Below are positions 8,546 to 12,736 of a stretch of 34,090 nt of DNA, piece by piece. Every line of letters begins with the position of its first letter. The first letter of the stretch is position 1. The stretch lies in assembly GCA_035645145.1 (NCBI GenBank), contig DASQNC010000006.1:1-34090 (forward strand), given 5' to 3'. The position numbers and the translations under genes were made by a program. The notes beneath the pieces were generated by a model that worked only from the letters and a program-made list of their open reading frames with translations, was not told where the DNA came from and ran no database searches. The stretch is from Azospirillaceae bacterium (lineage in GTDB: Bacteria; Pseudomonadota; Alphaproteobacteria; Azospirillales; Azospirillaceae).

Positions 8546-10468
<1,923 letters not shown>

Positions 10469-10869
10469 TCTCCAGCCTCTCCGTCTCGGCGGACTCGGGC
10501 GGCCCTCGAGCCGTGGCACCGCCGCGGTCCCCATGTGGTGATAGATGCGGTGGTGAAAATAGGCATCACCTTGTGGGGGAGATATAGGAGAGGGGGCCTG
10601 GGCCTGCAACCAGCCTACCCGAACCGAACCGGGCCAAAACCGAACGCGCCGGACCGGGTTGCCGCGGAAATGGCGCCGCGGCCGATGACCGGCGCCCTTC
10701 CGCCCGACCACACTTGTCACCGCGCGGCACGCAACCCAGACCCGCAGGGTAAGACAATGGTAACCGGACACCCCTACCGTGAACGCATGATGACGCAGGC
10801 GGCAAGCTTACGAATGTTCGGCAAAAGCCCGTCTGCGTGGCGTCCGGCTGCCCAAGCCGGTTAGGGCCA
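10469..10869. other. 401-bp intergenic region between dnaK and the small plus-strand gene
   Basis: The left 120 bp holds the dnaK leader and promoter. The remainder (about 10610-10869) has no reading frame with the codon bias of the neighbours and no recognisable RNA gene. It must contain any promoter of the divergent 69-residue gene, but I could not identify convincing -35/-10 elements there. Confidence 0.5.
10581..10609 (-). promoter_or_regulatory. Putative dnaK promoter (sigma32- or sigma70-like)
   Basis: On the minus strand TTGCAG (10604-10609) and TATATC (10581-10586) are 17 bp apart. The wider context, GGTTGCAG and CTCCTATATC, resembles alphaproteobacterial RpoH promoters as well as sigma70 ones, and I cannot separate the two by eye. 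Transcription would start near 10574, giving a GC-rich leader of about 105 nt. No CIRCE element is visible near it. Confidence 0.5.
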
Positions 10870-11079
10870 ATGACCATGACCCAGCAGCGCCGCAACCTTG
10901 CGCTCGTGATCAAGTCCTGTCTGGAGAGCCTGGAGCGCGAGGCGTCAGCGGGCGCGCTCTCCGACCTGGCCCATTTCATCAGTTTGGCGGTCATGGCCGC
11001 GGACGATGCGGCGGCCTCGAACGACGCCAACGCGCCGATCCTCAAGGCGATCACCAGCACCACCGCCGGCCACTGCTGA
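10870..11079 (+). CDS. Small protein of unknown function (69 residues)
   Basis: The short frame MTMTQQRRNLALVIKSCLE... has strong GC bias at third codon positions, consistent with real coding. The sequence looks largely helical (LVIKSCLESLEREASAGALSDLAHFISLAVMAADDAA), has no membrane segment or signal, and ends in HC. A second in-frame ATG at 10876 is equally possible; no strong ribosome-binding site precedes either. The gene sits between dnaK and the DUF1848 gene, in the same orientation as the latter, 83 bp upstream of it. I do not recognise a family. Confidence 0.55.
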   Translation: MTMTQQRRNLALVIKSCLESLEREASAGALSDLAHFISLAVMAADDAAASNDANAPILKAITSTTAGHC

Positions 11080-11162: not shown

Positions 11163-12044
11163 ATGATCGTCTCGGCCAGCTACCGCACCGACATCCCCGC
11201 GTTCTACGCCGACTGGTTCCTGGCCCGGCTTCGGGCCGGCCATTGCCGGGTGGCGAATCCCTACGGCGGTCCACCCGGCCGGGTGGACCTGACCCCGGGC
11301 GCGGTCGACGGGTTCGTGTTCTGGACGCGCAACCTGGCCCCCTTCGCGGCGGCACTCGATGCGGTGGACGCGCTGGCGTTGCCCTTCGTGGTGCAGATGA
11401 CCGTCACCGGCTATCCGCGGGCGCTCGACCGGTCCACCATCGACGCCGCAACGGCCGTGGACCAGATGCGCACCGTGCGCGACCGTTGGGGACCGCGGGC
11501 GGCCGTGTGGCGCTACGATCCCATCGTCCTGTCGGATGCGACCGGGGCGGATTGGCACCTAGCCAACTTCGCGGCGCTTGCGGCCTCGCTCGCGGGCACG
11601 GTGGACGAGGTGGTGGTCTCCTTCCTGGAGCCCTACCGCAAAACCACCCGCAATATGGATGCCGCCGCGCGCCGGCACGGATTCGTGTGGCACCGGCCCG
11701 ATGTGGCGGCCCAGCGCGGCCTGACCGTGCGCCTGGCCGCGGTGGCCGCCGAGCATGGCATGGCGCTGGCGGTGTGCACCCAGCGGCAGTTGGCCGACCT
11801 GCCGGGGGTGGCCGCCGCCCGGTGCGTGGACGCGGGGCGCCTGTCGGATGTCGCGGGCCGGCCGCTGGCTGCCCGGACCAAGGGAAACCGGCCCGGATGC
11901 CTGTGCGCGGAAAGCCGCGACATCGGGGCGTACGACACCTGCATCCACGGCTGCGCCTATTGCTACGCCGTGGCAAGCCGGGAGGCGGCGCAGCGCCGCC
12001 ACGGCGCCCACGATCCGTCCGGCGAAGCGTTGCTCCCGGCCTGA
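11163..12044 (+). CDS. DUF1848 family protein with C-terminal radical-SAM-like cysteine motif
   Basis: The 293-residue protein begins MIVSASYRTDIPAFYADWFLARL and continues with VANPYGG, GFVFWTRNLAPF, the VVQMTVTGYPRALD block and WRYDPIVLSD. This order is diagnostic of DUF1848 (PF08902). Near the C-terminus are Cys246 and Cys248 (GCLCAESRDIGAYDTC), then Cys260, Cys264 and Cys267 arranged C-x3-C-x2-C (CIHGCAYCYA). That spacing is the one used by radical SAM enzymes to hold a [4Fe-4S] cluster, but those enzymes carry it near the N-terminus. The family is, to my knowledge, biochemically uncharacterised. The gene is inserted, in opposite orientation, between grpE and dnaK. It may form a unit with the small gene upstream. 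Confidence 0.85.
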   Translation: MIVSASYRTDIPAFYADWFLARLRAGHCRVANPYGGPPGRVDLTPGAVDGFVFWTRNLAPFAAALDAVDALALPFVVQMTVTGYPRALDRSTIDAATAVDQMRTVRDRWGPRAAVWRYDPIVLSDATGADWHLANFAALAASLAGTVDEVVVSFLEPYRKTTRNMDAAARRHGFVWHRPDVAAQRGLTVRLAAVAAEHGMALAVCTQRQLADLPGVAAARCVDAGRLSDVAGRPLAARTKGNRPGCLCAESRDIGAYDTCIHGCAYCYAVASREAAQRRHGAHDPSGEALLPA

Positions 12045-12094: not shown

Positions 12095-12736
12095 TCAGGC
12101 GTTGGTCTTGACCTGAGCGTCGCCGCCGCCGTCGCGCTTGGCAACGGCCACCAGGGCCGCACGCAGCAGACGGTCGTGGATCAGGTAGCCGTCCTGCAGC
12201 ACCTGCACCACCGTCAGCGGCGCGGCCCCGCCGCCGTCCACCTCCATCATGATCTGGTGGAAGTTGGGGTCGGCCGGCTGGCCCACCGGGTCCATCCGCT
12301 TGATGCCGACCTTCTCGAAGGCGGCGACGAGCTGGCGTTCGGTCGCTTCCACCCCGGCCAGGAAGTTCTTCATGGCCGGATCGGGATCGGCCGGGGCGGC
12401 CCCCAGGGCAAGGCGCAGGCTGTCCGCGACCGGCAGCAGCTCCTTGGCCATGTTCGCCACGGCGTACTTGCGGGTGTCCTCGATCTCGCGCTGGGTGCGC
12501 TTGCGGACGTTGTCGGTTTCGGCCATCGCGCGCAGCACCTGGTCGCGCAGGTCCGCGACCTGCGCCTCAAGCTCGGCAATGCGCGGGTCCGGGCCGGCCG
12601 CCGCCCGGGTCTGGGCGCCGGCCGCGGCGTCGTCCATCGGTTGGGCGGACCCATTGGCCGCCGCAGGGGCGCCCTCTCCGTTGCCGGCGTCGGCGCGGAC
12701 GTCTTGGGCCTGGGGGGTGCGGTCGCTATCGGTCAT
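12095..12736 (-). CDS. grpE: Nucleotide exchange factor GrpE
   Basis: GrpE releases ADP from DnaK. The 213-residue protein has a disordered Ala/Asp-rich N-terminus (residues 1-45) and a long helical coiled coil (IAELEAQVADLRDQVLRAMAETDNVRKRTQREIED). The beta domain has the family signature FEKVGIKRMDPVGQPADPNFHQIMMEV and VVQVLQDGYLIHDRLLRAALVAV. It lies 63 bp downstream of hrcA on the same strand, the usual alphaproteobacterial pair, and the two are probably co-transcribed. Confidence 0.97.
   Translation of the reverse strand: MTDSDRTPQAQDVRADAGNGEGAPAAANGSAQPMDDAAAGAQTRAAAGPDPRIAELEAQVADLRDQVLRAMAETDNVRKRTQREIEDTRKYAVANMAKELLPVADSLRLALGAAPADPDPAMKNFLAGVEATERQLVAAFEKVGIKRMDPVGQPADPNFHQIMMEVDGGGAAPLTVVQVLQDGYLIHDRLLRAALVAVAKRDGGGDAQVKTNA

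Follow-up and report, generated by a model that had tools for sequence, protein, structure and literature searches.

What mainly identifies an enzyme of the radical S-adenosylmethionine (SAM) superfamily is a CX3CX2C motif close to the N-terminus. The chain of an ordinary member opens with strand 1 and then the loop that bears CX3CX2C, the first loop of its core, and this normal order is that of PFL-activating enzyme, Elp3, biotin synthase (BioB), SuiB and RlmN. Two other described systems bear on the protein studied here. One is spore photoproduct lyase (SPL), whose family acts in DNA repair according to PMC5368176; the other is ThiC, a barrel enzyme with its cluster motif near the C-terminus, and in PMC4389238 this motif, CX2CX4C, is placed on a separate tethered domain that acts in the other subunit. 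The window analysed here, a stretch of 34,090 nucleotides from an Azospirillaceae bacterium (contig DASQNC010000006.1, positions 1 to 34,090), encodes a protein of the family DUF1848 (PF08902) with a CX3CX2C motif at its C-terminal end. A first-pass annotation had pointed to this motif and raised the possibility of a circularly permuted radical SAM-like enzyme. That proposal is borne out by homology in swapped order and by a confidently predicted barrel for which a structural aligner ranks radical SAM enzymes highest, and we hold it to be highly probable that DUF1848 is a family of radical SAM enzymes, of predicted activity, in which the chain is circularly permuted by one β/α unit.

In such a protein the chain would begin with strand 2, continue through the rest of the barrel and finish with strand 1, followed by the loop that holds CX3CX2C. 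The ancestral N-terminus, with its CxC, and the ancestral C-terminus, with its C...C, would have been fused, and new chain ends would have arisen in the segment that connects the motif helix to strand 2. The predicted role of Cys260, Cys264 and Cys267 is to coordinate a [4Fe-4S] cluster, which would bind SAM and cleave it reductively to a 5'-deoxyadenosyl radical. At the junction of the former termini, Cys205, Cys221, Cys246 and Cys248 would make up another metal site, most probably an auxiliary [4Fe-4S] cluster.

Homology in swapped order to canonical radical SAM proteins

The Pfam profile PF08902 covers the window protein from end to end (profile positions 1-262 of 262, E = 8e-82, 275.4 bits against a cut-off of 30.5), in agreement with the family to which the first-pass annotation had assigned it. 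DUF1848 occurs in bacteria, archaea and phages. Of the 385 genomes searched in the window's class, 53 have a match above the profile's cut-off, as do 16 of 199 from the phylum of locus L121 and 15 of 148 from the phylum of a Methanosaeta metagenome-assembled genome (locus L065). We decoded 97 homologues and dropped one fragment (L141), which left 96 DUF1848 loci; Bacillota and Bacteroidota were barely sampled, and L192, L193 and L200 were left undecoded. Direct matches of the window protein to PF04055 and to the SPL profile PF20903 were absent at E-values up to 1, a phmmer search of the PDB gave only a 64-residue chain (E = 0.7), and PHROGs held no match at E-values up to 0.1. The only other functional trace in Pfam and NCBIfam is that residues 251-272 weakly match the radical SAM family PA0069 at its positions 58-79 (NCBIfam, E = 0.04).

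Beside the 15 genomes above the PF08902 cut-off, the phylum of L065 holds 16 that fall below it. In four of these a single open reading frame matches the profile twice, with positions 232-262 ahead of 60-225, the reverse of the DUF1848 order (both segments at E < 1e-3 in one of the four genomes); in the other 12 the motif segment alone was matched. Fifteen of the 16 were decoded (L247-L261), and in every one the motif precedes the barrel part and lies in the N-terminal half of the frame. All eight archaeal proteins that were scanned exceed the cut-offs of both PF04055 and PF08902 (30.9-44.2 bits for the latter, against 30.5). For the four compared with NCBIfam, the nearest families are PA0069, Rv2578c and radical SAM mobile pair B, none of them at its cut-off.

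Profile-profile comparison of 69 DUF1848 sequences with the 15 archaeal ones gave, in native order, two separate segments, with DUF1848 positions 234-268 matching archaeal positions 3-37 (score 64.1) and positions 61-220 matching 111-271 (score 60.1). After rotation, the DUF1848 profile yields one collinear alignment of 230 columns that spans archaeal positions 1-271 of 280 (score 111.3, E = 1.1e-15). Among the 74 cut points scanned, the optimum lies at cuts 224-232, and a cut at 264 brings the score back down to 60; 40 column shuffles reached a maximum of 22.5 (mean 15.6) and the reversed profile 19.6. A repeat with 120 DUF1848 sequences against the archaeal profile gave an optimum at 222-234 and a score of 114.3.

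All seven invariant cysteines of DUF1848, described below, align with archaeal cysteines in the rotated alignment. The pair C246-x-C248 falls on an archaeal CxC located exactly 11 residues before the motif (15/15), a distance shared by 41 of 45 DUF1848 sequences, the other four having 12. Towards the archaeal C-terminus, Cys205 coincides with the cysteine of 'CREG' and Cys221 with that of '[SA]CDG' (15/15 each). The alignment row of L249 is trimmed at its start, and its full frame has the CxC. Because the cysteines align in this way with pairs at the archaeal N- and C-termini, the alignment indicates that each of the ancestor's two ends bore two cysteines and that the permutation fused those ends.

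The same two segments of DUF1848 are homologous, again in swapped order, to SPL. In the window's class, five genomes lie below the PF08902 cut-off, of which four match profile positions 68-182 and the fifth (G292, profile 1-19) was left out of decoding. The four encode SPL-like proteins with a canonical N-terminal CX3CX2C, and the stretch matched by PF08902 lies behind the motif. The phylum of L121 has three such weak matches, and the two that were decoded are likewise SPL-like. When the SPL family (24 sequences) was compared with the DUF1848 profile, the two segments scored 48.0 and 47.8 apart and about 78 after rotation (196 columns), in a scan that forms a broad plateau, too flat to place the joint.

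In a maximum-likelihood tree built from 76 sequences, either rotated or canonical, all 45 DUF1848 sequences, the compact clade L194-L197 described below among them, fall on one side of a single branch with a support of 100/100 (the bootstrap was not fully settled, and L232-L236, L238 and L189 were left out). The tree fits a single permutation event but is no proof of one, because it was built on an imposed rotation and the branch that sets DUF1848 apart is a long one.

Predicted fold and invariant residues

AlphaFold2, run on the 69-sequence alignment, returned a confident barrel (pLDDT 96.4, pTM 0.93), in which DSSP assigns strands to residues 2-5, 50-55, 75-80, 114-121, 149-154, 201-204 and 251-253, among shorter ones. 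When VIA-align was run on the 1000 best chains from Foldseek, its top ten rows were all radical SAM structures, from the four enzymes Elp3, BioB, SuiB and PFL-activating enzyme (Z = 10.3 to 8.5); from rank 11 (Z = 8.3), radical SAM enzymes are mixed with other barrels. A fold unrelated to the radical SAM barrel, the outcome that the first-pass annotation had named as speaking against its proposal, was looked for and not found. Residue 1 of the model is aligned with residue 71 of PFL-activating enzyme (160 residues aligned, 2.9 Å), with residue 153 of SuiB and with residue 171 of RlmN (ranks 14-15), positions that lie past the motifs of those enzymes. Since residue 1 thus aligns beyond these motifs, we read the modelled DUF1848 chain as starting at strand 2, and the strand that precedes the motif is predicted to occupy the place of strand 1.

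The window protein combines a CX3CX2C motif, homology to PF04055 members and a predicted TIM-barrel core. Its motif is C-terminal, not in the first loop of the core as the canonical strand order would have it. Because of this position and of the rotated order, we class DUF1848 as a permuted variant, outside the canonical members of the superfamily.

Several results weigh against this assignment or blur it. The top rows of a plain Foldseek search are unrelated TIM barrels (allantoinase, dihydropyrimidinase), with Elp3 at rank 33, and the radical SAM rows of VIA-align (Z = 8.1-10.3) stand only modestly above the other barrels (best 8.3). Rotated one by one, DUF1848 sequences fared no better than in native order against a narrow archaeal hidden Markov model (30 of 69 scored higher). 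A first SPL set of six rows gained nothing by rotation (31.2 to 31.3), rotation against PA0069 brought no real gain, as the motif segment alone scores (62.4 to 63.4; 60.6 to 61.0), and scanning rotations with HMMER brought no gain against either SPL-like or PA0069 sequences. Rotated scores against the archaeal profile exceed 100 across cuts 124 to 256, and because they are high over so broad a range the joint is placed only roughly. With these other rotation tests flat, two things carry the permutation result: the broad scores from profile-profile comparison, and the Pfam matches in two segments.

The first-pass annotation had described a cluster of five cysteines, and the translated reading frame has Cys246, Cys248, Cys260, Cys264 and Cys267 where it put them, with the CX3CX2C spacing at the C-terminal end. 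All five are invariant. It missed two more, Cys205 and Cys221, which brings the invariant set to seven. Conservation was assessed in two alignments. A1 has 38 alphaproteobacterial sequences; A2 has 69, namely the window protein and those of 68 loci hand-picked for diversity from the 96, and it spans several phyla as well as viral contigs. The seven cysteines are present in 38/38 and 69/69, respectively. The pattern CxC...CX3CX2C was found in 97 of 97 decoded homologues, and this invariance rules out a chance occurrence of the motif. Residues S6, R117, D119, S153 and Y158 are also invariant in both alignments, T9 and D10 are invariant in A2 and conserved in 35/38 and 37/38 sequences of A1, and Y266 and Y268 are invariant in A2 (69/69), where identity goes down to about 28%. 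A CxC before the motif was seen in none of 12 PA0069 rows and in none of four SPL-like rows, three of them distinct (L031 and L143 are one protein). Four invariant cysteines (205, 221, 246 and 248) would come together at the joint, which suggests a second metal site, probably an auxiliary [4Fe-4S] cluster.

Two observations concern the extent of the domain. In a compact DUF1848 clade (L194-L197), the proteins end 5 to 18 residues past the motif and the stretch between strands 2 and 3 is seemingly absent; they may represent the permuted core at its smallest. Among viral structures, the one that matches the model best (E = 1.5e-11) is the BFVD entry A0A7M1RU68_5, a protein of 1278 residues from the uncultured phage cr272_1, which may contain a DUF1848 domain within a larger protein.

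Table 1. Features of the DUF1848 locus, in positions of the window
Feature	Position	Strand	Basis or remark
DUF1848 (PF08902) coding sequence, 293 residues; predicted circularly permuted radical SAM protein	11163..12044	+	open reading frame, profile match, model, rotation
First model strand, residues 2-5 'IVSA', read as β2 of the radical SAM core	11166..11177	+	followed by T9-D10
Cys205, invariant	11775..11777	+	aligns with the 'CREG' cysteine towards the C-terminal end of archaeal relatives
Cys221, invariant	11823..11825	+	aligns with the '[SA]CDG' cysteine towards the C-terminal end of archaeal relatives
Joint where ancestral C- and N-termini appear fused	11826..11897	+	rotation optimum at residues 224-232; 222-234 in the archaeal rescan
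Cys246-x-Cys248, half of the putative four-cysteine site	11898..11906	+	aligns with CxC before the canonical motif in archaeal relatives
Strand of residues 251-253 before the motif, read as β1 of the radical SAM core	11913..11921	+	DSSP and alignment; place in space predicted
CX3CX2C motif, Cys260/264/267, predicted ligands of the SAM-binding [4Fe-4S] cluster	11940..11963	+	aligns with the N-terminal motif of archaeal radical SAM proteins
dnaK, neighbour	8546..10471	-	DUF1848 sits between dnaK and grpE
69-residue open reading frame, conserved, narrow distribution; not considered part of the system	10870..11079	+	ATG at 10870, stop ends at 11079
grpE, neighbour	12095..12736	-	

Neighbouring genes and competing explanations

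The chaperone genes that flank DUF1848 in the window (Table 1) recur elsewhere. A dnaK gene is present in 50 of the 96 loci, on the opposite strand every time, and the order dnaK-DUF1848-grpE holds in all 29 loci where both flanks are visible, as it does in the window. One contig labelled Anaerolineae (L073) has DUF1848 beside the same chaperone genes as Rhodospirillales, perhaps through a binning error or a recent transfer.

The adjacent gene for 69 residues, in which the first-pass annotation had seen a possible partner, exists, but the neighbourhood survey does not favour that role. Searching the collected loci with tblastn, we found homologues at nine loci only, from eight organisms (L037 and L052 are one contig), those with names being Azospirillum and Arenibaculum; they lie 233 to 1178 bp upstream of DUF1848, compared with 83 bp in the window. 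With so few homologues, the gene is an unlikely partner and was rejected as one.

A better candidate is a methyltransferase-fold protein, whose gene stands directly upstream of DUF1848 on the same strand in 11 of the 96 loci, from several phyla (L076, L081, L098, L103, L116, L120, L121, L123, L124, L125 and L127). It is predicted to adopt a class I methyltransferase fold (AlphaFold2 pLDDT 88), its Foldseek rows are mostly SAM-dependent methyltransferases, and its match to Methyltransf_34 of Pfam is just under the cut-off. The gene was found in 8 of 18 genomes searched, in a single place each, which by its coordinates is beside DUF1848. This association raises the tentative reading, compatible with a permuted radical SAM enzyme, that the two proteins form a two-enzyme module for nucleic acid modification or repair. 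Type I restriction genes accompany the pair in three of eight partner loci scanned, in the order hsdM, an hsdS-like gene just under its cut-off, partner, DUF1848 and hsdR at L116, hsdR, partner and DUF1848 at L127, and partner, DUF1848 and hsdM at L098. The other five of these loci, at each of which one gene was scanned, speak against such a module with a recombinase, a helicase, a GmrSD-type endonuclease domain, MnmG and a gene without a match, as does the partner copy at L123, which is split into two frames. The partner is moreover absent from the window and not seen in 85 of the 96 loci, some of them cut short, and for this reason it would not be required for the core function.

Nucleic acid is our leading guess for the substrate, if a doubtful one, because the relative that has been characterised, SPL, acts in the repair of DNA and because restriction and methyltransferase-fold genes lie close to DUF1848 at some loci. 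Kinship with SPL, the methyltransferase-fold neighbour, the type I restriction genes at a few loci and the occurrence in phages are loose hints in this direction.

Three further neighbourhoods were observed. On a viral contig (L126:5001-6642), DUF1848 is immediately followed by a 267-residue gene that matches the N-terminal domain of SAM synthetase only (PF00438), which suggests a local SAM supply or a SAM sensor. On a Planktothrix plasmid (L177, NZ_LR882935.1), a gene for an AlkB-type dioxygenase lies about 1 kb from DUF1848, with phage-like genes around. In one example, a Roseburia plasmid (L178, NZ_CP135163.1), DUF1848 stands directly behind a protein-ADP-ribose hydrolase gene and a Sir2-family gene. 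Such a pairing is known from reversible ADP-ribosylation clusters.

We regard it as improbable that DUF1848 has kept a permuted radical SAM fold and lost the SAM chemistry, its seven cysteines then serving zinc or a structural or electron-transfer cluster. The family is without known activity, and a CxC with two further cysteines would also suit zinc. Against this, the motif cysteines, Y266, Y268, T9-D10, R117 and D119 are invariant throughout the diverse alignment, which suggests a catalytic constraint, and the SAM synthetase-like gene lies directly behind DUF1848 at its one viral locus. Even less probable, and in our view very unlikely, is a construction like that of ThiC, in which an ordinary TIM barrel would carry an independent C-terminal cluster loop and its likeness to radical SAM enzymes would be convergent, with no permutation. 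Other TIM barrels do fill the first Foldseek rows, but the barrel part and the motif part, taken separately, share homology with one and the same set of canonical radical SAM proteins, where their order is swapped, and the motif is a canonical CX3CX2C within 'YDTCpHGC.YCYA', close to 'YTGC.HGC.YCYA' and unlike the ThiC spacing. Likewise very unlikely, and rejected as the main context, is a role in a defence-associated reverse transcriptase system as in the PADLOC model PDLC03815 (RTasDUF1848). This model matches the window protein (E = 3.5e-36), and RVT_1, for which viral records alone were searched, was matched in 8 of the 17 with DUF1848. Of the eight reverse transcriptases, however, the closest (L131) is about 3 kb away from DUF1848, in the same orientation, and the remaining seven are 13-30 kb distant; moreover, DUF1848 sits between the housekeeping genes dnaK and grpE in the 29 loci that show both.

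DUF1848 compared with radical SAM and related enzymes

Pfam's own note on DUF1848 already remarks that the C-terminal cysteines resemble the radical SAM cluster motif; we know of no statement that the family is permuted. A literature search that did not extend to supplements, preprints and most subscription papers found no paper naming DUF1848 or PF08902 and, in the text it covered, no description of a circularly permuted radical SAM protein. The permuted proteins treated in the available parts of PMC1282579, PMC10853773 and PMC3662625 are methyltransferases, and in PMC4389238, on ThiC, the string 'permut' occurs 0 times. We put forward, as no more than a conceivable overall picture, that DUF1848 might be the first natural circular permutant among radical SAM enzymes, created when one event joined the ends of an ancestor with seven cysteines at an auxiliary cluster site, spread through bacteria, archaea and phages and dependent on SAM, and that in some lineages it might modify or repair nucleic acid together with a dedicated methyltransferase-fold protein.

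If DUF1848 is indeed a permuted radical SAM family, a so far uncharacterised family would be added to the superfamily. A permuted branch can escape definitions based on the position of the motif; the window protein has no PF04055 match even at E-values up to 1. DUF1848 would also be a natural test of how far the fold tolerates new chain ends.

PFL-activating enzyme, Elp3, biotin synthase, SuiB and RlmN are matched to the DUF1848 model by the structural aligner with Z-scores of 8-10, and differ from it in the canonical place of their motif. ThiC shares a C-terminal motif with DUF1848 and is the nearest precedent for one, yet its construction is different, with CX2CX4C where DUF1848 has CX3CX2C. 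SPL is related through both segments, and inspection by eye shows local motifs in common with DUF1848, such as 'TK[SN]' and 'R[FY]DP'; it has the canonical order and, in the four rows available, no CxC before its motif. The closest counterparts are the archaeal PF04055 proteins (L247-L261), which resemble DUF1848 over the 230 columns of the rotated alignment, have all seven cysteines in common with it and keep the same 11-residue distance from CxC to motif. They differ in carrying the CxC and the motif at the N-terminus and the other two cysteines at the C-terminus. DUF1848 and these canonical relatives, with the same seven cysteines, thus form a matched pair in which cluster chemistry and folding can be compared.
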